In this document: positions 23,201 through 64,000 of the stretch, in pieces | Layout of the letters: each line of letters opens with the position of its first letter | How positions within the stretch are numbered: the stretch's first letter is position 1 | Assembly (NCBI GenBank): GCA_947184155.2 | Contig: CAMXCT020003779.1 | Location: forward strand, 912,165 to 976,164 | DNA from: Cladocopium goreaui | Lineage: Eukaryota > Sar > Dinophyceae > Suessiales > Symbiodiniaceae | Length of the DNA stretch: 64,000 bases | Direction: 5' to 3' | Made by a program: the position numbers and the translations under genes | Notes under the pieces: model-generated | Told to the model about the DNA's origin: nothing | What the model saw: only the letters and a program-made list of their open reading frames with translations | The model's database searches: none

Positions 23201-26200
23201 CCTCAACCACGACCATCCTCGCCCAGTGTTCCCTGCCGGACCTCAACCACGACCATCCACGCCCAGTGTTCCCTGCCGGACCTCAACCACGACCATCCTC
23301 GCCCAGTGTTCCCTGCCGGACCTCAACCGCGAGTATCCACGCCAAGTGTTCCCTGCCGGACCTCATGAGATATGCCAGATAGAATGCCAGAAGATATGCC
23401 AGAACAGATATGCCAGATAGAATGCCCAGAAGATATGCCAGATAAATCCAGAAGATATGCCAGATAGAATGCCAGAAGATATGCCAGATACCAGAAGATA
23501 TGCCAGATATGCCAGATGCCAGAAGATATGTCAGAATATATGCCAGAAGATATGCCAGAAGATATGAGATGCCAGAAGATATGCCAGATGCCAGAAGATA
23601 TGTCAGATAGCCAGAAGATATGCCAGATAGAATGCCAGAAGATTTGCCAGATAGAATGCCAGAAGATATGTCAGATAGAATGCCAGAAGATTTGCCAGTA
23701 AGAAAATGTAAAAATGTCACGGTGGGGATCACACGAAGTAAAGTAATTTATTCTATGTATAGTTTTTTTACCGATTCCGGGAGATGTTTTTGAGGCCGAA
23801 ATTATCGATTTTGTATTCCATGTATCCCATCGGGATTATATATATATATTATATTTAAACACGCGTTTTTGCACATATCTGTACAACTTGAAGGGGAAAG
23901 CATTCTAACTGCTGAAATGCTGGTAAAAACAATTTCAAAGGGAACCGTTCTATTTCCGGAAATGCTGGTAGAAAACAATTTCAAGGGGGAAGCATTCCAA
24001 CTGCTGAAGTGTTTGTGTAAAAAACAACTTGAAGGGGGAAGCATTCAAACTGCTGAAAGGCTGGTAAAAAAACAATTTCAAGGGGGAAGCATTCTAATTG
24101 CTGAAATGCTGGTAGAAAAACAATTTCAAGGGAGAAATATTCTAACTGCTGAAAAGCTGGTAAAAAACAATTTCAAGGGGGAAGCATTCTAACTGATGAA
24201 ATGCTGGTAAAAAAACAATTTCAAGGGGGAAGCATTCTAATTGCTGAAATGCTGGTAGAAAAACAATTTCAAGGGAGAAATATTCTAACTGCTGAAAAGC
24301 TGGTAAAAAACAATTTCAAGGGGGAAGCATTCTAACTGATGAAATGCTGGTAAAAAGCCATTTCAAGGGGGGAAACATTCTAACTTATGACATGCTGGTA
24401 AAAAGTAATTTCAACGGGGAAGCATTCTAACTGCTGAAAAGCTGGTAAAAAACAAGTTCAAGGGGGAAGCATTCTAACTGCTGAAATGCGGGTAAAAAAC
24501 AATTTCAAGGGGAAAGCATTCCAACTGCTGAAATGCTTGTGTAAACAGCAACTTCAAGGGGGAAGCATTCTAACTGCTGAAATGCTGGGAAGCATTCTAA
24601 CTAATGAAATGCTGGCAAAAACAATTTCAAGGGGGAAGCGTTCTAATTGCTGAAATGCTGGTAGAAAGCAATTTCAAGGGGGAAGCATTCTAACTGATGA
24701 AATGCTGGTAAAAAGCCATTTCAAAGGGAAAGCATTCTAACTGCTGAAAAGCTGGTAAAAAGCCGTTTCAAGGGGGAAGCATTCTAACTTATGACATGCT
24801 GATAAAAACCTTTTCAAGGGGGGAAGCATTCTAACTGCTGAAATACTGGTAAAAAACAATTTCAAGAAAAGCATTCTAATTGCTGAAATGCTGGTAGGAA
24901 AGCAATTTCAAGGGAGAACCATTCTAACTGCAGAAATGCTGGTAGCAAGCAATTTCAAGGGGGAAGCGTTCTAATTGCTGAAATGCTGGTAGAAAACAAT
25001 TTCAAGGGGGAAACATTCTAACTGCTGAAATGCTTGTGTAAAAGCCACTTCAAGCGGGAAACATTCTAACTGCTGAAATGCTGGGAAGCATGCTAACTGC
25101 TGAAATGCTGGCAAAAAGCAATTTCAAGGGGGAAGCGTTCTAATTGCTGAAATGCTGGTAGAAAGCAATTTCAAGGGGGAAGCATTCTAACTGATGAAAT
25201 GCTGGTAAAAAGCCTTTTCAAGGGAGGATGAGGAACATTCTAACTGATGAAATGCTGGCAATGCAATTTCAAGGGGGAAGCGTTCTAACTGCTGAAATGC
25301 TGGGAAGCATTCTAACTGCTGAAATGCTTGTGTAAAAAACAAACAATATGAAGGGGAAACAGTCTAACTGCTAAAAGGCTGGTAAAAAGCAATTTCAATG
25401 GGAAAGCATTCCAACTGCTGAAATGCTGGTAAAAAGCAATTTCAACGGGGAAGCATTCTAACTGCTGAAAAGCTGGTAAAAAGCCGTTTCAAGGGGGAAG
25501 CATTCTAACTGATGAAATGCTGGTAAAAAGCTATTCAAGGGGGGAAGCATTCTAACTGCTGAAATACTGGTAAAAAACAATTTCTAGAAAAGCATTCTAA
25601 TTGCTGAAATGCTGGTAGAAAAGCCATTTCAAGGGAGACACATTTTACTGTAACTGCTGAAATGCTTGTGTAAAAGCAACATCAAGGGGGAAGCGCTCTA
25701 ACTGATGAAATGCTGGTAAAAAGCCATTTCAAGGGGGAAACATTCTAACTGCTGAAATGCTGGCAAAGCAATTTCAAGGGGGAAGCATTCTAATTGCTGA
25801 AATGCTGGTAGAAAGCAATTTCAAGGGGGAAGCATTCCAACTGCATTCTAACATCTGATGATATTCATAGTGCGGAGGCATTCTAAGTGAGGGATTTGTG
25901 CAAAGGGTTCTCCAAAAACAAAAAAACTTAAAACCCGGGTGGGGAGGCATTCTAACTGAAGGATTTTTTGCCGTGCGCGGGCCGCATTCTAACTGAGGGG
26001 GAGGAATATTTGGAATTCGCGGAGGCATTCTAACTTTCATTTTAACGGTATATATATATATATCAATAATGTAAAATAATGCTGTATGGTTCAAATCTGT
26101 GTATGGCTATGGATCAATACCTATACCATGTTGCAGGGAGGTGGACATCCATTATCATCCACAAAACACAGCAGTTTTATGATCTATTTGGGGATGGTTT

Positions 26201-51108: not shown

Positions 51109-51500
51109 GCCATGTGTGTGTGTGTGAAATCCGCTATCACTCATGCGGACCTGAGTTTCTGTTAACAAGTTGATTCAAACAATCCATCAGATGCAGGGGC
51201 GTGCAGCACCTTTGGCATACTGCACGCAACGAAGCTATTGCCATTGGTGGGAAGGGGAGACTGATCACCTCCCTGTACCTGCAGAAATTTGGTTTTGAAC
51301 TGTTGAACAAGCTGTCCATTTTCATGCGTATATGTTGCTAATTTGAGATTATCTCAGAAATCAGAGTTTCCCACTGCTTTCCCTACTCGACTGACCAGGA
51401 TTTTGGACCTAGGAACCCTCAAGGCATGAACTACTTCATCACTATAAAGTTCCTCATTCGAGTAATGTTACTCAGTAACATTCTCCCATCAGCAGTGTGT
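51109..51500 (+). repeat. Left direct repeat (pseudo-LTR) of the Penelope-like element
   Basis: Matches 58702-59089 almost base for base. I count about five differences, including one 1-bp indel near 51294. It contains conserved fold-backs: GCGTGCAG...CTGCACGC around a 13-base loop, TCCGC...GCGGA, and AATGTTACTCAGTAACATT. Its outer edge is a TG microsatellite. It lacks the TG...CA termini of true LTRs. Pseudo-LTRs like this are a known feature of Penelope-like elements. Confidence 0.9.
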
Positions 51501-51844
51501 AACGGGCACAGTGTCACTGACTTGTGACTGCCGTCCGCGTGTTTGGTGACACGCGTTGAATCGGTACCGGCCTTCCGGAAGAATAGTGGGGTACTGCAAT
51601 ACCTCGAAATCTGACGGGTATTAATTCCCGTGTGAATTGGCTTCAGGCCGAAATACATGAATCAAATACAATGCAAGATTTCACAAGATTTGGAATACGT
51701 CACAAGACAGCAGCAAGCCGTATGGCTGGAATTCTGAAAGACAGACACGAATTTATTACATTCTACACGTTCGGGCAACTCAGATCTGTTCTGTCATCAT
51801 TTAGTTCTTTTGTTTTTCACCTTTCCTCTGTATCTGTTTGAGCC

Positions 51845-53557
51845 ATGTCGAAATCTGATATTCCAGCTGCAGTACCAAAGTCGCGATGTCCACCTAGTCC
51901 TACTCCTCCACCATCCTGGATCACACCTGTAAGTCGCCAAAGTCGTCCTACAGTTCTTGAATTTACAGGACAATGCGGACAATATCGAATTGAAGGATCC
52001 AACATTCAAGAGACACGGGACTTACTCCAGACTGTTCTTCATACGGAGTCTCAACATGTTCAACATGTTCAACACATGCAGTTTCAACAAATGTTGACTT
52101 TGTCACAAAATATGATGTTCTCCAATGCTCTTGGCATTCAACCCAGCTCATTTCGTGCACCAATTGTTGATCGTGATGATCGAATGGACGGATCGAACGT
52201 AGTTTCTGGATTGGGCTCTCATTCTGCACTGCCCCCAGACACTGTGGAACGTCAGAACCGTAGCTCTCAAGTTGCACTGCCCTTAGTCACTGATGATCGT
52301 CAAAATCAGATCACATCAAATGACCGAGTGGATCGAGTACGTCCCACTGTTACAGCTGATTTACCAAGAGATGGAACGGTCCGGGTGCCTCTGACTTCTG
52401 AATCAGATCAACGGGATCGAGTTCGGGCATCAATGTTTATAGACCAGCCGTCAGTCTCAGTTGCTCCCATTCCACGTTGGGGATTGTTCGTACATTGTTT
52501 ACATGACCATCATGGACACAAGAAGACCTTCACTAGTGATCGAAGACTACCCGGACCTAGACCAAAGGTTACGACTCGCATTGGACGGCCTCCTTTGACT
52601 GTTGAAATTATTGAATTTTTACACCCTCAGAGTGATCAGATTTCTTTTTGGACGCTACCCACCACTGCCACATTTTGCTGTGATTGTATTACTTTAGAAC
52701 AACCTGAGAAATCACCTTGGTGGTTCCTATATCAGTGCATGGGCCGCATTCGTGAAGAACTCTATCAAGATCCTTACCGTATCAAGAATGCATATGAAAC
52801 TGGTGCACTCACTTTGGCAGTTGACAAATGGACGCCATCTTTGACATATTTTCAGCAACAATACTCTTTTCGAACTATTGACTCGATTGCGCTGTTAAAA
52901 CAACAACTTATGACTGACCATATGCAGATCCTCAAAGATGAGTATTCCGCCAAGTTTGAAAAATTCTCTTCAATCATCCATTCCGCACTCGAAGTATTGA
53001 TCTCTACTCTCCTTCTACATTCTGAAGTTTGGGCTTTCGTGGAGTGCATCGACTTACTCTTTGATCACCAGAATCAGTCTCTTGTGGCCATTGTCGCTCG
53101 CTTGGAACCAGTCGTTTTTACACAAGAACCAGAAATTCCTGCTGCAGAATACATATGTTACGCACACAACACGAATCCACAATCTGCTGCAGACAGTTTA
53201 TTCCATGGGTATATCAGACCATCATCCACTGACCCACAAGACGAGACATGGATCCCGGCATTGACCTTTTTCTGTCGTGGCGTTACTGTGGCAAGACCTG
53301 TTATGACCAGATCAGAGATGCTCACAACCTTGAGAAAGGCACAGAAATATTCCAATTTTACCACTGATCGTCCTACATGTTTGCTCGGTATGTCTAAATC
53401 AAGACAACCACATGTGACCAACGTTCTCGGCGGTGTTATTGGAGAACATGCTTGTACACACTATTTTGACAGTGTACATGGACGTGACAAACGTTGGGGT
53501 CTTCGTTCTCATTTGAGTCCGCTTAGCCATTTAGCTTGTATCATCCCATCATCATGA
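51845..53557 (+). CDS. Retroelement ORF1, 570 aa, function unknown
   Basis: The first ATG lies 345 bp after the left direct repeat and the frame ends at TGA 53555. The N-terminal 200 residues are polar and low in complexity, with loosely repeated blocks (ALPPDTVERQN, ALPLVTDDRQN). From about residue 215 the protein becomes compact, with several His and Cys (VHCLHDHHGH, TFCCDC), and helical between about 350 and 410. Residues 437-465 read ICYAHNTNPQSAADSLFHGY then IRPSS. That is shaped like the HxT...GxxxxS start of KptA/PARP-type ADP-ribosyl folds, though the similarity is by eye only and weak. It is probably the gag-like or accessory product of the element. No nuclease or RT motif is visible. 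Confidence 0.7.
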   Translation: MSKSDIPAAVPKSRCPPSPTPPPSWITPVSRQSRPTVLEFTGQCGQYRIEGSNIQETRDLLQTVLHTESQHVQHVQHMQFQQMLTLSQNMMFSNALGIQPSSFRAPIVDRDDRMDGSNVVSGLGSHSALPPDTVERQNRSSQVALPLVTDDRQNQITSNDRVDRVRPTVTADLPRDGTVRVPLTSESDQRDRVRASMFIDQPSVSVAPIPRWGLFVHCLHDHHGHKKTFTSDRRLPGPRPKVTTRIGRPPLTVEIIEFLHPQSDQISFWTLPTTATFCCDCITLEQPEKSPWWFLYQCMGRIREELYQDPYRIKNAYETGALTLAVDKWTPSLTYFQQQYSFRTIDSIALLKQQLMTDHMQILKDEYSAKFEKFSSIIHSALEVLISTLLLHSEVWAFVECIDLLFDHQNQSLVAIVARLEPVVFTQEPEIPAAEYICYAHNTNPQSAADSLFHGYIRPSSTDPQDETWIPALTFFCRGVTVARPVMTRSEMLTTLRKAQKYSNFTTDRPTCLLGMSKSRQPHVTNVLGGVIGEHACTHYFDSVHGRDKRWGLRSHLSPLSHLACIIPSS

Positions 53558-53942
53558 TCAATGATCATGGAAGTCACACAATTTTGTTGCGCTCCATAGA
53601 TCAAAAGCTGCGCTCTGTTGTATCACTTTTTGAGCGGTTTCATTTATCAAGCCATCTCTTCATGAGTCATTTCAGATTTCGTCCAAGTCACCTTTTTGTG
53701 AGTTACAGTCACATACGTTTGATGTTTTTCCCAGTGACGATTTCGAAATCAAGAGTATTTACATTTTGTTAAGTCTAATTCAGCTGCTGTTATTCTTGAG
53801 TACTTCAATTTGACTTGCATCAAAATTGTCTGGTTCTGTTCAAATTTTTTCACTACTGTTTTCCATGATTGGTATAATTCACAGTGGATCAAACCCGTCA
53901 GTAAGTCGTTCTTCAATCCGTTTGTGATCAGTATTTGGACAG
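53558..53942 (+). other. Spacer between ORF1 and ORF2 of the retroelement
   Basis: 385 bp, T-rich. A 78-codon frame overlaps the ORF1 end but has no protein-like composition. It could hold signals for reinitiation or splicing, but none is recognisable by eye. Confidence 0.4.
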
Positions 53943-55031
53943 ATGCAGTCTCAACGCCGAGATTCTCGATCCAGATCTCGACATCGCAGTCGTGGACATC
54001 GTCGACATGAGTCTAAGGAATACCGTGATCGAAGACGACCGCTGTCCCGGACCCAAGACCTCAGTCGTGCACGATCACCAGACTTACCTGATTCGTGGCA
54101 ATCCACACGAACCCATTATGACACAAAGACGGAGTATGGATTGACTTTTCCACGACATGTTGAGTCGACCAATTTTTCACGAAAGAACAATACATCTGGC
54201 ATTCCTATTTCTGATGTTAAGCTTGTCGACATTGTGGCCAACGGTCTTGAAAATTGGGCTTTGCGCCTTGTTGCCAATGGTAGGTATGTCGCATGTGAGA
54301 TGTTTCGAAATCGCCTTGAAGCCACATTTTCTACCATGCTTTTTCGTGAACTCTACCGACAAAAAGACAATGTTGATTTTGCGAAGCTCATCCAGCATTT
54401 GTCTTCAGAACCAGGTGATTCTCAAGATTGGAAATACAAGCTTTCAGGAATTGAGGCGTTGATTCAACAGACTGTTGATTTGTTCAAGACTTTGGCACCC
54501 AAAGATTCCAATCAATCATTGTTAGAAGAACTGGAAAGAATGAAGAAAGAGAACGCAGCTCTTCGTGCCAACCAAAGTCAAGTTCCTACTCAGGAAGGAT
54601 CACAGACTCAGAACACTGAGGAACCACCAGGCGGAACACTCCCATCCATGTTTCGTCAATCAGCAACAGAGGAACTCAGACGCCAAAAAAGTCAGTCGAT
54701 GCCAAGTATGCCGGGAGCCCAAGATGACCGTTCTCCACTCTCACAATATCGACGTGGACAAAACGCACCCATCTTAGGCACACACACACCCAAACATACC
54801 ATGACTGAACTCGACAAGTGGATCAAGAACAATGTTCCTAAGACGGAACAAGTCAATGTTGATGCCATGTTGAAGACCATTACTGACGAATACAATCAGT
54901 TTCCAGCCTCTGAAAGACCAAATTTAGAATCGATTCTTTCAGATTGGGGTCTCCCCAGTACAGTACTGGCCAAAACAAAGGCGGAATACAATTTGAAGGT
55001 TTTGGCCGCCGTTCAATTCCTTCGAAACTGA
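53943..55031 (+). CDS. Retroelement ORF2, SR-rich coiled-coil protein, 362 aa
   Basis: Starts with an arginine/serine-rich tail (RRDSRSRSRHRSRGHRRHES) that should bind nucleic acid. Residues about 75-180 are helical, and a short coiled coil follows (LLEELERMKKENAALRANQ). The C-terminal domain, about residues 280-362, contains ELDKWIKNNVPK and ESILSDWGLPSTVLAKTKAE. Layout and position suggest a gag-like RNA-packaging protein (inference). It ends with TGA at 55029-55031 followed by C, and the same frame stays open straight into ORF3. Confidence 0.75.
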   Translation: MQSQRRDSRSRSRHRSRGHRRHESKEYRDRRRPLSRTQDLSRARSPDLPDSWQSTRTHYDTKTEYGLTFPRHVESTNFSRKNNTSGIPISDVKLVDIVANGLENWALRLVANGRYVACEMFRNRLEATFSTMLFRELYRQKDNVDFAKLIQHLSSEPGDSQDWKYKLSGIEALIQQTVDLFKTLAPKDSNQSLLEELERMKKENAALRANQSQVPTQEGSQTQNTEEPPGGTLPSMFRQSATEELRRQKSQSMPSMPGAQDDRSPLSQYRRGQNAPILGTHTPKHTMTELDKWIKNNVPKTEQVNVDAMLKTITDEYNQFPASERPNLESILSDWGLPSTVLAKTKAEYNLKVLAAVQFLRN

Positions 55032-55106
55032 CATTTTGGATTAAAAACCAGTGAAGTAAGTCCTCCATCATCATGGGGGCAGCCATTTCGCAAGTATTCC
55101 AAGCAT

Positions 55107-57827
55107 ATGCATGGTGCAGAGACAACGAAGCTTGCCTCACATTTTCAGTCGCTGTGGTTTGCTAGCATCCAATTCATGATTTACACTTTGCAATTTTCTC
55201 CAGCTTTACCATGGCATGTACAGGAACGGATCATGTGGATACTTAGTGTTTGGACCATTTTTGCTTACATCATTCGACCTTTTTCAGCCAAAAATCGACG
55301 TCTTCTGACTATTTTGCGGCAGTGCGAACTTCCAGAAATTTTGTCATGGACATGGTGGAACAGGTCGAGCATCGTGTACTGTCGTTTACATTTTCGAAAT
55401 GCTCAGTTTTACATTGGCTCCACTGAACAAACCATGTTTTCGAGAGAACAGAGTCGGTTACGAAAATACCGACAGTTAAAGAAAGACCAACTTGCTTACT
55501 ACGAACCAGCTTTGAAGGCCTGGTCAGCACAACGCAATTATTTTCAATTTATTGGTTTTCCTTTACTCCAGACTGACGTTGACAAGCTTCTTGCAGTTGA
55601 AACAGCATGCCAAAGGACTTTTCGCCCCATTTACAATTGGCCTTGGATCAATCCTTTGATGAAACAACTTCGGATTGGTAAGCAACAATTCGGACCTTCA
55701 ACTTTGAAGACCAGTACTCAAGGGATGAAATTTGTGAAACGATTTCGCAAACGCAGTCTGCAAACTGCTCAATGCATTCTTAGTCGTCGGATTACGGATA
55801 CTACAAGTTTGTACATTTTCCTGTATTCCCTTGGTTCTGACACGCATGACAAGTTCATTTGTTCTCGCATTCTACGTTCGAAGTTGTCAAATGTGCAGTT
55901 GATTTTCTTGTTATGGCGCTTGAGCCACCATATGTCGGAACCTTTTCGGACCAGAGCACAATCTCAATTGCGTTATATTTTCAAATTCTATGCTACTGAA
56001 TCGCCACCAGCGAATATACCCATGCAGTTACAGGTTTTGTCGGATACAATGGAACGTCGATTTCGACAATGGTTGCTGGGATTCACTCACCATCATCGCT
56101 GTAACTTTCCCATTTTTCACAAAGTTCGTGCACCGTTTGTGACAGTGAAAAATCGAACTTTAGCTCAATATTTGTACAATTTTCGTTCTTTTCTAAAGTT
56201 GTGGACACCTCAGTTTCGCCCTCAGTGTGCTTGTCAGTTGTTTCCTCTTCATGTTCAACACAATCCACGGAAAACAGATCATATTTCATCCTTCGCCTCG
56301 GAATGTTTTCCACTGGATCCTATTCTGACTGCACATTTGGAAGATGAAGTTACACCTACGTGGACACAATTTTTCCATCAAAATACCTTCCAATTTGAAA
56401 AATGGTTACGACGTTGGAAACTTCGCCGAGATCTGATCCAGTATTGGCAGGCTTTTCTACAAGACTGTTGGAATTTGCAACTTGATTCAGGTCAGTTGTA
56501 CACTCAAAAACGTATTCGACAGGCTCGACAAAGGATCGACGGACTTATTGCTTCCCCAGCAGATCATTTTCCATCGTCTCTCACCTTACATTGTCCTGTC
56601 CAGTGGCACAATTTGCTGTGTAAGACATTTCAAGACACCTCTGTTTTTCATCTTTGTAGTGTTGATTCAGCCACTATTCTGAAGAATATTCAGTATGATC
56701 TTCCTGGATGGATCACTGACAGATATCCTTGGGCTTTCGATTTTCATTTATCATTAAGCAAGGCGTATATTCTTCCAAAACCGTCACGCTCGTTTATGAA
56801 AGCACGACCCATCGTTAATTACAGTCGATCTTGGCCAAAACAGATGGGTTATATTTTGTCTGTGGTGTTGCAAGATATTTTGAAAGTTGTTTATCCATCC
56901 TTACTTCGCTACAGTGATATCAACAAGGTGATGAACGAAATCAAATGCTTTTTCCAAATTGATCATGGTGCTGACCTTCTTCTCTTTCAGACTGATATTG
57001 CTGGTTTCTACAACCAAGTTGAACATGACCGCATTCTCGGATCTATTGAATTCGCCATTCATCAATATATTTTACAACATGGACAGACCTTCGATTCTGT
57101 ACTTCAAGCACACGTATATCAACATGAACGCACCCTGCGAGTTTTTAGAGGTCAATGGCGACAACACACCAAGATGTATCGTGATATTCGCTTGGGCGAC
57201 ATTCTACCTATTTGTAGCTTTCTGTTGAATCACAGTTTTTTCACCGTCGGAATGTCTACATTTTTACAAAAACGTGGTGCCAGCATGGGTAGTCAATGGG
57301 CACCTATTTTCTGTGCAGCTGTCGCACTCATGCGAGAACATACTTTTCTGTCCTGTTTTCGTCAATTTACCAATAATTCCACTTTTCATCATCGTTACGT
57401 TGACAATCGAGTGATGCTACTTCCTGTGGGACACTGGAACTCAGAAATGCAGTTATTTTGGAATCTTTCATTCTATTCACCTCCCATTCTACTTGAACAA
57501 GTTGAAGGATCTGAATTGTTAGGATACAACGCTGACGTGTTACAGCGTACAACTACATATCTTCAACCTGTGGACAAAGCGTTTCGTTCAACAAGGAGTT
57601 CAAGTACGACTAAGGCACTCACGTCCGGAGCTCTGGCCAGAATTCGTCTCATTTTGCAGAATACATGGCCCAGTTCTCTACAAATACCTCAAATTCAAGA
57701 TTTTCTGTCCATTTGGTCTCGACGACAACGTGATGTATTGTCTTCTACTTTGAGAAGTCAGATTATCAAATTGGTACGCTCACGTCATCCACAACTTGAT
57801 CCTGATTCTCTTTTTCACTTTGACTAG
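55107..57827 (+). CDS. Retroelement ORF3: N-terminal GIY-YIG endonuclease plus reverse transcriptase (Penelope-like, permuted type)
   Basis: 906 aa from the first ATG; the frame is open from 55032. The GIY-YIG nuclease spans about residues 88-180: IVY 89-91, FYIG 101-104, Arg113, catalytic Glu165 in AVETACQR, then FRPIYN. A CxC motif (QCACQ, Cys374 and Cys376) lies in the linker. The RT domain spans about 540-830: ILPKP...KARPIVNYS, motif A QTDIAGFYNQV (Asp630), motif B RGASMGSQWAP (724-733), motif C RYVDN (764-767). N-terminal nuclease, CxC linker and C-terminal RT match the Naiad/Chlamys-type Penelope-like elements and not LINEs or LTR elements. Motif C has Asn where most RTs have the second Asp. 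The frame is intact, so the copy may be young. Confidence 0.9.
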   Translation: MHGAETTKLASHFQSLWFASIQFMIYTLQFSPALPWHVQERIMWILSVWTIFAYIIRPFSAKNRRLLTILRQCELPEILSWTWWNRSSIVYCRLHFRNAQFYIGSTEQTMFSREQSRLRKYRQLKKDQLAYYEPALKAWSAQRNYFQFIGFPLLQTDVDKLLAVETACQRTFRPIYNWPWINPLMKQLRIGKQQFGPSTLKTSTQGMKFVKRFRKRSLQTAQCILSRRITDTTSLYIFLYSLGSDTHDKFICSRILRSKLSNVQLIFLLWRLSHHMSEPFRTRAQSQLRYIFKFYATESPPANIPMQLQVLSDTMERRFRQWLLGFTHHHRCNFPIFHKVRAPFVTVKNRTLAQYLYNFRSFLKLWTPQFRPQCACQLFPLHVQHNPRKTDHISSFASECFPLDPILTAHLEDEVTPTWTQFFHQNTFQFEKWLRRWKLRRDLIQYWQAFLQDCWNLQLDSGQLYTQKRIRQARQRIDGLIASPADHFPSSLTLHCPVQWHNLLCKTFQDTSVFHLCSVDSATILKNIQYDLPGWITDRYPWAFDFHLSLSKAYILPKPSRSFMKARPIVNYSRSWPKQMGYILSVVLQDILKVVYPSLLRYSDINKVMNEIKCFFQIDHGADLLLFQTDIAGFYNQVEHDRILGSIEFAIHQYILQHGQTFDSVLQAHVYQHERTLRVFRGQWRQHTKMYRDIRLGDILPICSFLLNHSFFTVGMSTFLQKRGASMGSQWAPIFCAAVALMREHTFLSCFRQFTNNSTFHHRYVDNRVMLLPVGHWNSEMQLFWNLSFYSPPILLEQVEGSELLGYNADVLQRTTTYLQPVDKAFRSTRSSSTTKALTSGALARIRLILQNTWPSSLQIPQIQDFLSIWSRRQRDVLSSTLRSQIIKLVRSRHPQLDPDSLFHFD

Positions 57828-58114
57828 ATACCATGACAGGAAACGCAGACAAAACAGTTGCTGGATTTCGCATTGTCGTGTTTTGTCGTCATTCGCCATC
57901 ACTTTCGTGAAGTCATTTGATGTTGGACATTTTCATCAATGGGCATTCTTTGACGTTTTTCATCTGAAGTTCGATAACGTCACATTTTTTCTTCTTTTTC
58001 ATTTACCTTTTCAGTTATGTTCATGTTGTGTTTTTCTCAACTCAGTTGTGTTCATCATACTTTTGCCGATTGCGAATCTTGACTTTGACAGTTCGAATCA
58101 CACGTTTTTGAATT
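57828..58114 (+). other. Spacer between ORF3 and ORF4 of the retroelement
   Basis: T-rich, 287 bp. A 111-codon frame here is almost entirely Phe, Leu and Val and is judged spurious. Confidence 0.5.
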
Positions 58115-58585
58115 TTGAAGAGTATATTTAAGCTCAAACTCAAACCAATCTATCTCCTTCTTACGATGCCTTCGTTGCGTGAACTTAGCAATACTTTGGA
58201 ACAGTGGTCCCTTCGGAAACGTCTCACCGATCGCTCCAGATCGCCAGTTCGGGAACCCTATATTTGTGATGGTCAGACACGTTCGAGTATCAAGAACGCT
58301 TCAGTTGAGTCTCGTTTCGAAAATGAAAGTGAACGATCCAGATCGCAAGTCCGGGAGCCCTATAGTTATGATGGTCAGACACGCTCGAGTATCAAGAACG
58401 TTTTGATCGAGCCACTTTCTGAAAATGCAAGTTCTACATCATATCGACGTCAAGATCGGTCTTTCACTGCAGCTGATGTTTCATCTGTTCAGTCCTCTTT
58501 CCCTTCAACCGATCGTTTTCAGAAGAGTCGCTCTCCAACGGGAACGCAGTCTGGACCCTTATTCTGTCCCAAGGAGACCATTTGA
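58115..58585 (+). CDS. Retroelement ORF4, small SR-repeat protein, up to 156 aa
   Basis: The more natural start may be the second Met at codon 18 (MPSLRELSNTLEQW). It contains two 34-residue-spaced copies of RSRSxVREPYxxDGQTRSSI (residues 40-61 and 74-95). The tandem is also visible in DNA as a 102 bp repeat, and the copies differ mostly by third-position changes, which suggests protein-level constraint. The RS dipeptides recall ORF2. Function unknown; nucleic-acid or splicing-factor contact is inference. Confidence 0.6.
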   Translation: MKSIFKLKLKPIYLLLTMPSLRELSNTLEQWSLRKRLTDRSRSPVREPYICDGQTRSSIKNASVESRFENESERSRSQVREPYSYDGQTRSSIKNVLIEPLSENASSTSYRRQDRSFTAADVSSVQSSFPSTDRFQKSRSPTGTQSGPLFCPKETI

Positions 58586-58701
58586 TTTACAGTGAACCTT
58601 TCCCATATGTTGTACAAGAATTTCTAGGACATGTATATATTGCAAACTGATACTGCGATGAAAAACAGCGTTCACCAGCAGCTGCCTCCCCTGCCGGGGG
58701 G

Positions 58702-59089
58702 GCCATTGTGTGTGTGAAATCCGCTATCACTCATGCGGACCTGAGTTTCTGTTAACAAGTTGATTCAAACAATCCATCAGATGCAGGGGCGTGCAGCACC
58801 TTTGGCATACTGCACGCAACGAAGCTATTGCCATTGGTGGGAAGGGGAGACTGATCACCTCCCTGTACCTGCAGAAGTTGGTTTTGAACTGTTGAACAAG
58901 CTGTCCATTTTCATGCGTATATGTTGCTAATTTGAGATTATCTCAGAAATCAGAGTTTCCCACTGCTTTCCCTACTCGACTGACCAGGATTTTGGACCTA
59001 GGAACCCTCAAGGCATGAACTACTTCACCACTATAAAGTTCCTCATTCGAGTAATGTTACTCAGTAACATGCTCCCATCAGCAGTGTGT
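58702..59089 (+). repeat. Right direct repeat (pseudo-LTR) of the Penelope-like element
   Basis: Copy of 51109-51500, offset about 7.59 kb. It ends in CAGTGTGTGTGTG, a TG microsatellite, after which the host sequence GTTTTAGCTAAGG begins. The high identity with the left copy points to a recent insertion or to copy correction. Confidence 0.9.
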
Positions 59090-59605: not shown

Positions 59606-62600
59606 TTAGAGCTGCTGCGAAGCTGGTCGTCGAAATGGCAGCGTTTCCACTGCATCCTGGAAGTTGCGGCGCGCCATGAATTTTCGCTTCTTGGCCGCTG
59701 CCAGTTCTGCCTTTTTGATCCCCATGAGTTCGAGTTGTACATTGCGAGCGTGCAGCAATGACGCAAGGAAGAGAAGGCCACGCACTGGGGTCATGCGCCG
59801 CGCCGCCACCGCAATTTTGCGAACAAACGCAAAAGATTGTTCAGCTGCGCTGTCATTAATGTTGGGGAAGCTCGAGGCATGCGTCTGAGGCCACGTTTTG
59901 GGAAACGGGCGAGTGCCATCAGGCTTGCAGCCGCTGTGCCCTTTGCGAAAATGGAACTTGTCGATGACAAGGCGAAGCCGGCTGAGGGTACGAGCAACTT
60001 TGCTCATGCGGCGTCGTTTCTTGGAAGCCATGAAGCGCTGCAACGTGCACGCGCAATCGTAAAAGACCAGCGGCATGGTTTGCTGAAGTGTTCGCAGGCG
60101 AGTCTTCCGCTTGGCAGTCTTCAAATTGACATTGCGGCCGGCAGACAGAAACTCAAACAGCTCAGCCAAGAAAAAGTAGACCCCTGTTGGGGATTCGTGG
60201 GTGTACACGAGCTTGATGGCGCTGATGATTTGGCATTCCTTGACAGCGGCTAAAACGCCCCCACTGCGCCGTGCTGCACGAGATTTTTCCCATTGCCGGC
60301 GACACGCGTCATTTTTCTCGGACGCAGAGAACTGGACTTGATGTCCGACGCGTGGCTTTGATTGGCACTCTCGTGAAACGGGCTCCAACAAGGATTGACC
60401 ATATTGCTGTTGGTAGTGCGTGGGAACCAAGGCGCTTGATAGCGAAAAGGCTTGGCCTGTCTTGGTTTGGAAAGCATACCGCCGCGAACGCGGAATACGT
60501 TTGACAGAAAGAAGCGAAACTGGATATTGAAGCTTAGCGTGGCTCACAGCAAAACTCAACGCTTTCCGCGTTCGTCGACAAAGCGGGAAAAGCGCGACAA
60601 TATCTGGCGACTTGTGGCGACCAGCTTCGGTGCGAGAAAGCAGGGTTGCTGTCGTTGCGAGGAAGGAAAGGATCATTTGCAAAATGAGATCGCAACCAAA
60701 AATCGGGTCAGCATCTCGGAGGTGCACGGCGCAATATTTTCGACCAGGAATGGGAGCACTCTGGCATCCAGTCAGGCAATGGGCGTTCAGAGGCCTGCAA
60801 TCCCATACGCCCGCATCCGTGTTGGCGCACAGTTTGGTACGAACTTTGGCATTGCCGTCCACGCCTAGAATGCCTCGTTCGCACTTGGAACACTGGTGTT
60901 GCAGGAGCCAGCGACGCTGAAATTGGTGAAGCACCTGGTCTTCGAGTCCACGGCACCAGGGTTCCATGCCATTCTTGCCGACAAAGCAATTGATGGAAGT
61001 GCGATTGTTTGTCAAAAACTTGCACACGGAGTATTGCAGCCACGAATCGCGGAGATGCTTCTCCAGCGTTCGAATTTTCATGTGGAGCTTGGGCCGCAGC
61101 ACATTCACAATGCCTCGGAAAGAACCGCCGCAATGAAGCAGAATGTCGGTGACTTGGTCCAAGAAAGCTGTCGCAAAGACGATGTTTTGCGTGATGCAGA
61201 AGTAGCGTGGGTTGTCTTGCACTAGCATCCTAGCCCGCGCACCAGTTGCATCTTTGCCTTCAACCCACGGTCCAAAATAAGAGCGACTGCAGGAGCAGCA
61301 AGAGTAGCTGAGGAGCAGGACCTGTTCCACGCAATGCAAGCCAAGCGCACAAGGCACTGCGCGAGCGGCGGCACATTTGAGATGTGCGTGGCACGTCAGA
61401 CAATGTTTCACGTCTGGTTGAACGCATCTCGTGGGAATGTGCTTTGGCAAGTGGCACTCAGCTCCAAGCCAATGCGGGGCACGTCGGAGAAGCTTGCCAA
61501 GAATAAAGTCGCAGTCCCTTTCAGACAGGTGAAGATGGAAACATTGTTGTTGCAGCAATGCGTGCGCCACAGACGCTCGACATGCAGGATCCGCGTGGTG
61601 GAACGCGAGAACGAAAGCAGGCAACAAACTGAGGGACCCTGGGTACATCAACGAAGAGCACGCGTCGCTGTGGGTGGCCCCGGCTAACATCTCGGTTCCT
61701 GGAGGCGGAGGAGGAGGATTGTTAGGCGCTACCTGCTTGGCTGCCACGCGCTGGGATTTGACATTCAGAATTTTGGCACTGTGCTCGAAAGGGCGGGCGT
61801 CAGTGGCGTATTGCGTGAGCAGCTGCAAGCACTGCTCCATGCGCGGGACATCGAAATCGGGCGGCAACAGGACCTTCAAGTCGGCAGCATACAGAGTGGA
61901 GATAGACGCGGTCACCGTTAGGCAGGATTCTGCGTACTCCGCCAAGCTGTTCGCCTGCTTGTGCTGGAAAAGATGCAGCAAATTTGAAAATGCAACTTGG
62001 GAAGTTGGGCATTGCGGAGGCTTTCTTTTGCGCAGCCTGTGAGCCGCCTTTTCGGAGGTCCTGGTCAAGGCTGCCAACTGGCAATATTTCAGAAGCAAAA
62101 ACGCGTTTTGGCAATATGGCTTGGCAGCATCTCTTGGTAATGCCACGCCTGTGTCTTTTGCATGAAGTTTCTTCAGCAAGGTCCCCTGGTCAACCATGAT
62201 TGTGCTTGCGCTCGTGAGAACCCAGTGCGCAGCAACGAAAGCATAGAGTTTGTTGTCCGGGGAAAGGGCTTCCCACCAAACAGTGAAAGACGGGCTAGCA
62301 TCCGGCAACGAATTGGCAGGGGCAGCTTCTGCGCGAGCAGTTGGGAGAGTGTCGGTTTCGATCAAAGTGATAAGATACGGATACCTCTGCGCAGCAAGCT
62401 CGCGCAAGTCGTGCGTGTCCAAGGTGCTGACGAGGTTGGATCCCGGCGCGAGCAGTTGAGACTGCAAGGACAAATAATCGAAAATAGCTTTAGCCGGCTC
62501 CACGACTTCGCGAGAAAGCTCTCTGCTCCAAGCCGTGCCTGACTGATCGGCGGCAGAACACGCACGCGCCCAAGAATGCAACAACAGAGCCAAACGCCAG

Positions 62601-64000
62601 GGAAGTGATTTCAGTTTGCCGGCATGGCTGAAAAGCTTTGGGTCCTGCAAGTATGATTGTTCTTGCGTGAGAACTTGGGCGTCGTAGTGCTCTCGAAAAT
62701 AATCCAAGGCATCGGGGGCAAAGAAATATGGAATGAATTCCCGCGACGCATCAAAATCAGGAGCATTTGCAGTGTGAACGTTTTCGATTCTTGTGAGGAC
62801 AGAAACAAACTGGGTGAGCAATGAAGCTGGAAGGACCGGCGCACCTCGAGAGCGCGCAGCCCCCGTGGAATACACCGCAGGTTCGAGGACTGCGTCTGCT
62901 TTCTCGAGGCGGGGGCTGCTGTGAAACATGAGAAACCGACTTTGCATGCCCAAGGCACCATCTTTGGCCAGAAAGTCATGCCATTCCTCGACATGGAAAG
63001 TCATTGCTAAACAAAGGCATGTCTGGTGCATGGAGAAGCGGTTGTTATCCTTCACAACCGTCCTTTTCCAAATGGAGCCATTAAAGAGCTTGGACATAGT
63101 GGAGGCATTAAATCCGGAACCTTCTCCGTTGGCCAGCGCTCGGAGAAGGAACCGGCCTTCATCATATAATCCAATAGCCCGGTGCCCGTTGTGCGCCATT
63201 TGCATGCCAATGGCGGGCAACGAGCCTTCGTCGGAAAACAAGGCGGGCTTGTTGTTGTGGATGGCCGCCAATGCTTTCGACAAGGAGGTCTTGCGTTTTT
63301 TTGACGAAGGCTCATCTGGCTCCGCACCGTGTGCATCCTCCTCCTCTTCTGCCAGCTGCGCTTCCTTACGAGCTTCGTCCAGCGCCTTTTGGAGCAACTC
63401 CTTTTCAAAGCCAGAGACGATGTCTGCCAAGGCTGTCATGATGCCGCTTTTGTTGGCGCCGCTGTCGAGGCATAAGCCCAACCAAAGCAGCGGCGGCACG
63501 AGGAAAAATTCGTTGATGAACAGCCTGGCTTTGGAGCACGCAGTGCCAAGAACGGGTAGAAAAAGGAGGAAAGCCCATTCAAAGGGGCAGCCCGCTTTTT
63601 GGGCAAGGTTGTCTGTCATTGAATAGACGTCCGGCAAGGCATTTTTCAGCTGCTCATGTGGGAAGGGGGCAAGGTCGGCAAGGATGTATCGAGAGATCAG
63701 CTTTGCTCTTTCTGGATCTTTGCGGTACACGTCTGCAAAAGCTCGGTTGAAGTCTTCAGGTGTACCCCGAAGCAAATTGCCCGGCGAGGCTATACAGGCA
63801 TTGACTGAGTCGTCTTCCATGTGCGCAGGGCCCGACGCACCCGCTGTGCAACTGGCAGCGTCTGGCGAGGAAGTGAGTAACTCGCATGGCGTAAAAACTG
63901 TCAGCGCTTCACGGCTGAGCCGCTCGGTGAGCGTGGGTTCTGCCAGGTTCAATGGAACGGTCGCCACGCACGCTGCATGAGCCGTGGGCTGCGCCCGGCC
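59606..64000 (-). CDS. DUF3987-type P-loop ATPase fused to a KDZ-like transposase, 5' end outside window
   Basis: The minus-strand frame is open from the window edge to the stop at 59606. A GTG at 63967 is only a possible start, and numbering below is from it. An N-terminal ATPase-like part has Walker A-like DSGANKS (168-174), Walker B-like GLYDEGRF (266-273) and GMQSRFLMF with Arg344, the pattern of DUF3987 primase/helicase-like domains. An acidic loop and KKRK lie between them. A Cys-rich region follows (CLTC at 856, SCCSC near 890, CSKC at 1026). The C-terminal part matches KDZ (Kyakuja-Dileera-Zisupton) transposases: VDGNAKV (Asp1037), VFYDCAC (Asp1304), DKFHFRKGHSGC (1336-1347) and AAEQSF (Glu1376). 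There is no intron over 4.4 kb, unlike the host genes nearby. The product would act in the nucleus on element ends. Confidence 0.75.
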   Translation of the reverse strand, partial: GRAQPTAHAACVATVPLNLAEPTLTERLSREALTVFTPCELLTSSPDAASCTAGASGPAHMEDDSVNACIASPGNLLRGTPEDFNRAFADVYRKDPERAKLISRYILADLAPFPHEQLKNALPDVYSMTDNLAQKAGCPFEWAFLLFLPVLGTACSKARLFINEFFLVPPLLWLGLCLDSGANKSGIMTALADIVSGFEKELLQKALDEARKEAQLAEEEEDAHGAEPDEPSSKKRKTSLSKALAAIHNNKPALFSDEGSLPAIGMQMAHNGHRAIGLYDEGRFLLRALANGEGSGFNASTMSKLFNGSIWKRTVVKDNNRFSMHQTCLCLAMTFHVEEWHDFLAKDGALGMQSRFLMFHSSPRLEKADAVLEPAVYSTGAARSRGAPVLPASLLTQFVSVLTRIENVHTANAPDFDASREFIPYFFAPDALDYFREHYDAQVLTQEQSYLQDPKLFSHAGKLKSLPWRLALLLHSWARACSAADQSGTAWSRELSREVVEPAKAIFDYLSLQSQLLAPGSNLVSTLDTHDLRELAAQRYPYLITLIETDTLPTARAEAAPANSLPDASPSFTVWWEALSPDNKLYAFVAAHWVLTSASTIMVDQGTLLKKLHAKDTGVALPRDAAKPYCQNAFLLLKYCQLAALTRTSEKAAHRLRKRKPPQCPTSQVAFSNLLHLFQHKQANSLAEYAESCLTVTASISTLYAADLKVLLPPDFDVPRMEQCLQLLTQYATDARPFEHSAKILNVKSQRVAAKQVAPNNPPPPPPGTEMLAGATHSDACSSLMYPGSLSLLPAFVLAFHHADPACRASVAHALLQQQCFHLHLSERDCDFILGKLLRRAPHWLGAECHLPKHIPTRCVQPDVKHCLTCHAHLKCAAARAVPCALGLHCVEQVLLLSYSCCSCSRSYFGPWVEGKDATGARARMLVQDNPRYFCITQNIVFATAFLDQVTDILLHCGGSFRGIVNVLRPKLHMKIRTLEKHLRDSWLQYSVCKFLTNNRTSINCFVGKNGMEPWCRGLEDQVLHQFQRRWLLQHQCSKCERGILGVDGNAKVRTKLCANTDAGVWDCRPLNAHCLTGCQSAPIPGRKYCAVHLRDADPIFGCDLILQMILSFLATTATLLSRTEAGRHKSPDIVALFPLCRRTRKALSFAVSHAKLQYPVSLLSVKRIPRSRRYAFQTKTGQAFSLSSALVPTHYQQQYGQSLLEPVSRECQSKPRVGHQVQFSASEKNDACRRQWEKSRAARRSGGVLAAVKECQIISAIKLVYTHESPTGVYFFLAELFEFLSAGRNVNLKTAKRKTRLRTLQQTMPLVFYDCACTLQRFMASKKRRRMSKVARTLSRLRLVIDKFHFRKGHSGCKPDGTRPFPKTWPQTHASSFPNINDSAAEQSFAFVRKIAVAARRMTPVRGLLFLASLLHARNVQLELMGIKKAELAAAKKRKFMARRNFQDAVETLPFRRPASQQL

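Follow-up and report, generated by a model that had tools for sequence, protein, structure and literature searches.

Between positions 51109 and 59089 of the window (the whole stretch of 64,000 nucleotides that was analysed), direct repeats at both ends frame four same-strand open reading frames within a TG microsatellite. The features of the locus are as follows.

51109..59089: whole element
51109..51116, no strand assigned: TG microsatellite, left edge (target plus element end)
51117..51500, + strand: 5' terminal direct repeat (pseudo-LTR), 384 bp, matching 58707-59089
51501..51844, + strand: leader from the 5' repeat to ORF1, with a pyrimidine tract and then AG directly before the ATG
51845..53557, + strand: ORF1, 570 aa, C-terminal half conserved, without recognised domain
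53943..55031, + strand: ORF2, 362 aa, with SR-rich N-terminus, coiled-coil-like segment and conserved C-terminal domain
55029..55031, + strand: in-frame UGA at the ORF2/ORF3 boundary, proposed readthrough site (TGA in 21/21 family A copies)
55032..55106, + strand: open linker, read in the frame of ORF3; a hairpin is predicted at ~55051-55091
55107..57827, + strand: ORF3, 906 aa, with GIY-YIG endonuclease, CxC linker and reverse transcriptase (RT)
55359..55661, + strand: GIY-YIG endonuclease region (approximate) inside ORF3, with invariant residues
56226..56234, + strand: CxC motif, C374 and C376, invariant in five aligned sequences
56754..57506, + strand: RT core (approximate) inside ORF3, with invariant motifs
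58166..58585, + strand: ORF4, 139 aa SR-repeat protein, ATG start at 58166
58229-58330 and 58331-58432, + strand: two tandem units of 102 bp in ORF4, 81% alike
58707..59089, + strand: 3' terminal direct repeat (pseudo-LTR), adjoined 3' by the TG microsatellite

The first-pass annotation had described direct repeats of about 390 bp, four intact ORFs on one strand and a dinoflagellate host. The repeats measured 384 bp and share 98.96% identity with one indel, the TG runs lying outside both; the four frames were recovered at 570, 362, 906 and 139 aa, and the host genome holds 172 exact copies of the dinoflagellate spliced leader compared to 0 of the reversed control. For ORF4, the ORF tool chose the alternative start TTG at 58115, which gives 156 aa. 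The pyrimidine tract and AG of the leader could serve as a spliced-leader acceptor.

ORF3 was aligned as five sequences from four families. The order GIY-YIG, CxC and RT, as first annotated, was invariant among them. The YIG lies at aa 102 and the CxC at aa 374, and the RT, which begins near aa 550, has the Asp of motif A at aa 630, motif B' at aa 724 and the Asp of motif C, YVDN, at aa 766. Invariant residues of the nuclease were Y91, Y102-I103-G104, R113, R117, E165 and N177, and those of the RT were LPKP, KARPIV, DIAGFYN, GASMGSQ and YVDN; no invariant Cys or His was found before aa 330. Profile matches lay below the curated cut-offs, namely, PF01541 in one of four pieces scanned (family C, E=0.0099 over positions 3-74 of 78), with no GIY-YIG profile match in the window's own ORF3 protein, and RVT_1 in two of the five aligned proteins (best E=0.002). 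The distance from motif A to B' is 94 in ORF3 (92 in L032), compared to 118 in human TERT and 56 in L1, as a measure of spacing alone, without structure. In hhalign, motifs A, B' and C of ORF3 and human TERT fell in register, but not significantly (probability 0.8%, E 0.072), and the alignment to L1 covered 15 columns only. PDB searches with ORF1 and with ORF3 gave no match. Relatives of ORF1, ORF2 and ORF3 were not confirmed in viral_contigs, nor were those of ORF1 and ORF3 in genome_contigs.

In the host genome, 20 near-identical loci beyond the window were read, with the four-ORF order and repeats in 20/20, three of which are cut by contig ends; the repeats stand at both ends in the other 17 (one interrupted). 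Most reading frames are intact, in agreement with the recent activity initially proposed. The dN/dS values among these young copies were 0.82, 0.86, 0.54 and 0.72 for ORF1 to ORF4, a weak signal, in line with their recent origin; the conservation argument is based on the comparison between families. A tandem copy suspected at L011 was rejected, its flanks being unrelated DNA and the search string having missed the end of the 3' repeat. The identical left flanks of L014 and L018 and the identical right flanks of L010 and L026 were not counted as independent insertions but taken as assembly overlaps, since the contigs of L018 and L026 end close by.

The order ORF1-ORF2-ORF3 recurs in three other families (B to D), in which ORF3 is 43-50% identical, and as it is kept both across the loci and across these diverged families, ORF1 and ORF2 are integral to the element and not nested within it. 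The four-ORF description was narrowed for ORF4, since all 22 ORF4 matches fell within the window's own family (A) and none was found in the others; the conserved core consists of three ORFs. Some relatives are damaged, with ORF2 frameshifted in L030 and L031 and three stops in ORF3 of the family E copy. ORF1 is 25-34% identical to its aligned relatives and up to 59% to other genomic pieces. None of its Pfam matches passes the cut-off, the best being MoeA_C at E=0.012, and its C-terminal motif (HNT...G.IRPS...FY.RG) might, as a guess by eye, be ADP-ribosyltransferase-like. Nor did ORF2 have a Pfam match above cut-off or an assigned fold, its coiled-coil-type profile matches all being sub-threshold; more distant families gave matches to ORF2 only, at 27-35%. 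The SR-rich N-terminus, the coiled-coil-like segment and the place before pol suggest that ORF2 may be Gag-like.

Every one of the 18 copies with two readable ends sits in (TG)n, always on the same strand, and L030 (family C) and L031 (family D) have similar TG ends. For one insertion, three paralogous sites are empty; their TG tract is uninterrupted and their flanks are complete. Direct repeats at both ends also occur in L030 and L031, and no such pair was found around L029 (family B) or L032 (family D) within the stretch fetched; the family D copies on C2535 and C117 are spaced ~8.6 kb by their coordinates. Among family A copies, the repeats are complete and paired, and no tandem or inverted neighbouring repeats were found. 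They are tidier than typical pseudo-LTRs, which was counted against the reading as a Penelope-like element (PLE).

Chlamys and Naiad were reportedly described by Craig et al. in 2021 as PLEs with an N-terminal endonuclease (EN+). Such elements place GIY-YIG before the RT, carry a CxC linker, terminal direct repeats and a fingers-domain insertion between RT motifs A and B', and show a microsatellite bias; to our knowledge they contain no hammerhead ribozyme, and the Chlamys branch is without the CCHH motif of other PLE nucleases. By these features, the present element shares with both the N-terminal GIY-YIG, the CxC, the C-terminal RT, the long A-B' interval, the terminal direct repeats and the microsatellite insertion, as well as the lack of a hammerhead match (Rfam gathering threshold over the window, E up to 5 over the element), and with Chlamys a nuclease region without invariant Cys or His. 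By the same features, it would differ from Chlamys and Naiad in two conserved extra ORFs, the accessory ORF4, ORF2-UGA-ORF3 in one frame, the dinoflagellate host and a length of ~8 kb. Judged by sequence and flanking anatomy, ORF3 is probably that of a PLE of the N-terminal-nuclease, Chlamys-like kind, as had been put forward initially; the motif order and the (TG)n targets in 18/18 copies carry this assignment, with weak profile support. The element may also represent the distinct lineage that was first proposed.

ORF3 continues the frame of ORF2 after a single UGA in each of the five families read (A to E). When every row among the matches listed was counted, 45 of 48 ORF2-ORF3 pairs were in frame, compared to random-looking ORF1-ORF2 offsets in the control (17/22/18 of 57). 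An earlier count on selected rows (53 ORF3 places, 70 of the 114 for ORF2 and some of the 84 for ORF1) gave 47 of 50 in frame, with control offsets of 14/18/16 of 48. In the natural copy C1593, CGA replaces the stop, and ORF2 and ORF3 are fused in an open frame of 1321 aa. The protein encoded by the linker after the stop is similar between families A and B (differences at the three codon positions 10/6/16) and between C and E (6/5/10), and 0/2000 shuffles reached the score in either comparison; no similarity was found between linkers A-C, B-C and D-C, and the linkers of C and C1593 had no third-position excess (3/3/3).

The stop is followed by C in families A, B, D and E, extended to UGA-CUA in D and E, and by A in family C. 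Predicted hairpins follow it in A, B and C at a spacing of ~12-19 nt and are absent at the equivalent place in D and E (z +0.3 and +0.6). The family A hairpin reaches a z of -2.6 when 60 nt are taken and -0.3 with 100 nt; at the larger size, B2 alone kept a z below -2. The UGA-A of family C and the missing hairpins of D and E count against readthrough. The consulted part of PMC11166343 describes a readthrough signal in which UGA precedes CUA or CGG and a stem-loop frequently stands ~6-12 nt downstream. With the viral cases covered there, the element has in common UGA-C or UGA-CUA, some downstream hairpins and no early downstream AUG, and differs in that the putative site lies in a PLE and is known from sequence alone (PMC11166343). 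ORF2 and ORF3 are probably linked by Gag-Pol-like readthrough rather than being two independent proteins.

Alternatively, ORF3 could be made by termination and reinitiation or from its own spliced-leader mRNA, the common frame being incidental. Spliced-leader trans-splicing is a habit of dinoflagellates, copies of the leader are present in the genome, and reinitiation is possible in families A and D because the first in-frame ATG follows the UGA at codons 26 and 32, respectively. Families B, C and E, in contrast, have no early ATG (codon 64 in B, codon 89 in C and none in the E stretch read), the linker codons are conserved ahead of any ATG, and the fused C1593 copy and the frame bias relative to the ORF1-ORF2 control also argue against separate production, which we consider unlikely, if still the strongest competitor of readthrough.

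It is less probable that the two repeats are true LTRs and the element a retrotransposon of the LTR type that captured a nuclease. Both repeats are complete with fixed ends, the layout is Gag-Pol-like, and 8 of 17 repeat pairs agree at shared polymorphic sites, some with rare variants. The remaining 9 of the 17, among them the window's copy, have repeats that differ from each other and carry variants also present in other copies, unlike LTRs copied from one template. Moreover, integrase, protease and RNase H had no Pfam or NCBIfam match, ORF3 combines GIY-YIG and CxC with TERT-like spacing, and no target duplication was visible at the empty-site comparison, where one within the TG tract would escape view.

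Decoding of the UGA as selenocysteine instead of ordinary readthrough has a precedent in a related PLE clade, as Naiad elements of spiders and clams decode UGA in this way, and every separating stop read in families A to E is UGA. There is, against this, only one UGA, located at the protein boundary, the C1593 copy has CGA at its position, and SECIS had no Rfam match, whether at gathering threshold in the window or in the element with E as high as 5, which makes this reading very improbable. Least credible of all is an origin of ORF1, ORF2 or ORF4 as host genes or as nested insertions unrelated to the element, as might be thought from the restriction of ORF4 to one family and the lack of recognised domains in ORF1 and ORF2, since the ORF order is the same in 20/20 loci and the presence of ORF1 and ORF2 in families B to D refutes it for these two.

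The best explanation, with a probability of roughly 0.7, is a full-length, recently active N-terminal GIY-YIG PLE with a three-ORF core, a family-specific ORF4 and a proposed life cycle based on UGA readthrough. The element RNA would be translated into ORF1 and ORF2; most ribosomes would halt at the UGA that ends ORF2, the minority that pass it producing an ORF2-ORF3 fusion, comparable to retroviral Gag-Pol. ORF2, with its SR-rich part and coiled coil, may coat the element RNA, and the fusion may deliver both enzymes, nuclease and RT, to the particle. Nicking of (TG)n/(CA)n tracts would fall to the GIY-YIG domain, the 3' end of the CA strand would pair with the UG repeat at the RNA 3' end and prime cDNA synthesis, and the TG at the opposite end would let the cDNA join by microhomology. 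The seamless landing in TG repeats in one orientation is proposed to occur because TG at both ends allows this pairing and microhomology.

In the parts of PMC3846280 and PMC11167929 consulted, canonical Penelope/Poseidon EN+ PLEs likewise combine RT and GIY-YIG with pseudo-LTRs (193-218 bp in the A. vaga families), but their nuclease is C-terminal, they have a single ORF, and their pseudo-LTRs are often inverted or partial tandem, being direct only in most Pen1 copies. Terminons/Athena share a PLE RT with several additional ORFs and differ in being without endonuclease, telomeric and up to 40 kb long; the portions of PMC6431247 and PMC5408684 consulted do not mention a readthrough layout. Apart from Terminons, PLEs are described in the consulted part of PMC6431247 as elements of 4-6 kb having one ORF if a nuclease is present and two if it is absent. 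No description of a retrovirus-like ORF2-stop-ORF3 layout in PLEs was found in the literature searched, and what appears new here is ORF2-UGA-ORF3 in one frame across five families of a nuclease-bearing PLE.

The chances are about even that a lineage of nuclease-bearing PLEs in dinoflagellates independently evolved a Gag-stop-Pol arrangement, in which an SR-rich, coiled-coil protein that coats RNA would end at a leaky UGA and a fixed share of ribosomes would read on into the nuclease-RT, setting the Gag:Pol ratio in particles, together with a conserved ORF1. The locus adds, for a dinoflagellate, a young type of retroelement whose target, TG microsatellites, is clear, and the five families in one genome make the readthrough idea testable. 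If true, such a nuclease-bearing PLE, with two conserved proteins encoded upstream and an in-frame UGA ahead of pol, would point to an origin of Gag-Pol style stoichiometry beyond the LTR/retrovirus class as well.

The four-ORF unit in the window was found to be real: two direct repeats of 384 bp with 98.96% identity enclose four ORFs, all on one strand, as the first-pass annotation had described, and a TG run flanks each repeat on its outer side. The features in the window are listed below.

51117-51500, 5' direct repeat of the element
58707-59089, 3' direct repeat of the element
59606-63967, minus strand, uninterrupted ORF of 1453 aa in GC-richer DNA, adjoining the element, with a match to DUF3987 (PF13148, E=4e-22)
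23883-25844, minisatellite of about 2 kb with 47-bp units
13140-13207, short contig-internal array with TTTAGGG units, like the plant-type telomere repeat

Profile searches of ORF1 to ORF4 against Pfam and NCBIfam returned nothing above cut-off, the best sub-threshold matches being MoeA_C for ORF1 (E=0.012) and TIGR02449 for the coiled-coil-like part of ORF2 (E=0.0027), and no Rfam match was found over the window.

Near-identical copies, together with the window's element referred to as family A, were searched for in the host assembly (G000; 1.17 Gb, 6202 contigs), in which the window occupies C3779:912165-976164. Among the best 50 of 1714 candidates scored with ORF3, the 20 best matches, including the window's own, were full or nearly full copies with 99-100% identity. 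Besides the window, 20 near-identical loci were read, namely, the 19 other best ORF3 matches and contig C398, in which ORF3 is split. All 20 kept the ORF order of the window, a positive outcome for the search for such copies that the earlier annotation had proposed. Three loci (L015, L023, and L024) are truncated at the edge of a contig; both repeats are present in each of the remaining 17. Deletions of about 60 bp were located in ORF2 of L014 and in ORF1 of L018, and the 3' repeat of L009 is broken by a small insertion. This insertion of about 105 bp (approximately L009:8548-8653), with the inverted ends TTACCCTCTGGTAA... and ...TTACCAGAGGGTAA, looks like a MITE. Frames were intact in 17/17 (ORF1), 15/19 (ORF2), 17/20 (ORF3), and 19/19 (ORF4) of the copies aligned at full length. 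Judged from these sequences, family A is young, and the recent activity claimed earlier agrees with copies at 99-100% identity and mostly intact frames.

More distant relatives in the same genome form families B to E, and families B to D delimit the conserved part of the element. In comparison to the window, ORF3 identity was 50% in family B (L029), 45% in family C (L030), and 43% in family D (L031 and L032); ORF2, where aligned whole, showed 48% in family B and 36% in L032, and ORF1 26-27% in families B to D. In these three families, ORF1, ORF2, and ORF3 follow one another in the same order and strand as in the window, ORF2 being frameshifted in the copies read of L030 and L031. Two ORF3 match sets, merged into 55 distinct places, were compared with 114 ORF2 matches; 48 of the 55 places have a same-strand ORF2 match no more than 400 nt upstream, and at the remaining seven the ORF3 matches start at query residue 156 or later. 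The 22 ORF4 matches comprise 21 family A loci and contig C2669, which also carries ORF1, ORF2, and the repeats at 99%, and no ORF4 counterpart was seen 3' of ORF3 in L029 to L031. The ORF1-ORF3 unit of the four-ORF element first described is thus kept in families B to D, and ORF4, found only in family A, is an accessory to a core of three ORFs. The sequence comparison strongly argues for conservation of ORF1 to ORF3 across families. The copy on C2669 (G000:C2669:547257-553738, G000 being the host assembly) has ORF1, ORF2, ORF4, and both repeats and falls short of the window's copy by about 1.5 kb, probably owing to a deletion within ORF3. ORF2 relatives at only 27% identity were also observed, with near-equal scores on several contigs (G000:C535, C2, C1687, and others), and may belong to additional young families of this type.

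The GIY-YIG, CxC, and RT parts attributed to ORF3 in the first reading were recovered as invariant motifs in five aligned sequences, with profile scores below cut-off. The invariant positions are the GIY-YIG residues Y91, Y102-I103-G104, R113, R117, E165, and N177, the CxC pair C374/C376, and the RT motifs KARPIV, DIAGFYN, GASMGSQ, and YVDN. The catalytic status of individual residues of this kind is known from GIY-YIG enzymes. PF01541 (GIY-YIG) matched one of four pieces scanned, from family C (positions 3-74 of 78, E=0.0099), and RVT_1 matched two of the five aligned proteins (best E=0.002), both below the curated cut-offs. The window's own RT piece scored worse than its relatives (RVT_1, E=0.072), and the window's ORF3 gave no GIY-YIG profile match and no match in a PDB search. 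The distance between RT motifs A and B' is 94 residues (92 in L032), closer to the value for human TERT (118) than to that for L1 (56); in hhalign, ORF3 and human TERT had motifs A, B', and C in register, the alignment not being significant. By features that Craig et al. reportedly described in 2021 for the N-terminal-nuclease clade, the element is classified as a Penelope-like element (PLE) of this kind, on the grounds of its domain order, CxC, A-B' spacing, repeats, TG targets, absence of a hammerhead, and a nuclease region in which no Cys or His is invariant; its exact place in the PLE tree is weakly indicated.

The evidence for targeting of TG repeats is strong. Both outer ends were TG runs on the sense strand of the element in 18/18 copies with both ends readable, with lengths of 12-16 nt on the left and 6-14 nt on the right in 14 measured copies, and the inner repeat edges carry shorter TG stretches that are identical in almost every copy. 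The repeats of L030 (family C) and L031 (family D), with identities of 98.1 and 99.3%, start with TGTGTGTG and end with CAGTGTG. Within the stretch retrieved for L029 and for L032, a search for such a pair found none. The insertion at L020, a family A locus, sits in a dispersed repeat. This repeat (L020 flanks, L043, L044, and L045), the target of one insertion, has many genome copies and a TG tract beside sequence like AACATCTGAATAGATGTAAAACTT. With the joined L020 flanks as a query, 34 of the best 40 of 1437 candidates match at 83-87% from query position 42 or 51 through 314 and so span the junction. Three empty sites that were read have an unbroken TG tract of similar length at the element's position and complete flanks, so the L020 insertion entered a pre-existing TG microsatellite without loss; no longer duplication was visible against these sites, and one inside TG would be invisible. 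Flanks shared by L014/L018 on the left and L010/L026 on the right look like assembly overlaps, and independent sites are therefore probably slightly fewer than loci.

At polymorphic sites, the two repeats agreed in eight and differed in nine of the 17 copies with both repeats whole. In the window, the 5' repeat is of the L021 type and the 3' repeat of the L012/L027 type. The nine differing pairs are not what would be expected if both repeats of a copy derived from a single template when it inserted, but several pairs share rare variants, and assembly mixing may contribute. In a search for further repeats, all of the best 40 of 260 candidates lay on contigs with family A ORF matches. In the roughly 0.5-1 kb of flank read for family A copies, no tandem or inverted neighbours were present. 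On contigs C2535 and C117, family D copies are separated by about 8.6 kb.

ORF1 has a conserved C-terminal half and no Pfam match above cut-off or PDB match. The N-terminus of ORF2 is SR-rich, one segment weakly matches coiled-coil-type families, and the C-terminal domain is conserved, a layout that suggests a Gag or ORF1p analogue. In the window, the ORF1 ATG is closely preceded by a pyrimidine tract and AG, and the ORF2 ATG directly by AG, so ORF1 and ORF2 could be on separate trans-spliced mRNAs. The dinoflagellate spliced-leader sequence occurred 172 times (81 + 91) in the host assembly, compared to 0 for the reversed control, in agreement with a dinoflagellate host.

According to PMC6431247 and PMC5408684, PLEs are 4-6 kb long and have a single ORF when nuclease-bearing and two when not, and Terminons are the multi-ORF, nuclease-free exception; pseudo-LTR anatomy is treated in PMC3846280 and PMC11167929. 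Among the open-licence PMC papers listed, no description of a PLE with stop codon readthrough or of a PLE from a dinoflagellate was found.

An in-frame UGA separates ORF2 from ORF3. In 21/21 family A copies, ORF2 terminates with TGA and the codon directly after it already belongs to the open ORF3 frame, L027 having a frameshift further downstream. Families B, C, D, and E show the same arrangement in the copies that were read, and the separating stop is always UGA. By coordinates, 45 of 48 ORF2-ORF3 pairs share a frame, many being sibling copies, and the independent count is five families. The out-of-frame pairs are C645 (the frameshifted L027) and, by coordinates only, C690, whose ORF3 match starts at residue 22, and C1983, whose ORF2 match ends at 339 of 362. 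Of 57 ORF1-ORF2 offsets, 17, 22, and 18 fell into the three frames, a distribution like that of frames without linkage.

Stop context, first in-frame ATG after the UGA, and hairpin z 3' of the stop (60-nt window; 100-nt window). C1593 is a relative of family C; B2 is a further sequence.
A: UGA CAU; codon 26; -2.6; -0.3
B: UGA CAA; codon 64, inside the conserved part; -2.0; -1.2
B2: -2.5; -2.1
C: UGA AGU; codon 89, inside the conserved part; -2.1; -0.6
C1593: -1.6; -0.2
D: UGA CUA; codon 32; +0.3; +0.4
E: UGA CUA; none within the stretch read; +0.6; -0.1

Similarity of the linker at the protein level was reached by 0/2000 shuffles for A-B (10/6/16 differences by codon position, 23 codons compared) and C-E (6/5/10, 21 codons compared) and was marginal for D-A (12/2000); none was detected for A-C, B-C, and D-C (575, 955, and 1181 of 2000). 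The A and B linkers contain the splice-donor-like GTAAGT/GTAAGC, which sits 3' of the UGA, and a splice donor alone could therefore not remove the stop. C1593 has CGA in place of the stop and an open frame of 1321 aa, the only such fused frame among 114 ORF2 matches. With moderate confidence, ORF3 is predicted to be expressed as an ORF2-ORF3 readthrough protein, and ribosomal readthrough of the UGA, yielding this fusion, would be the route to the ORF3 protein.
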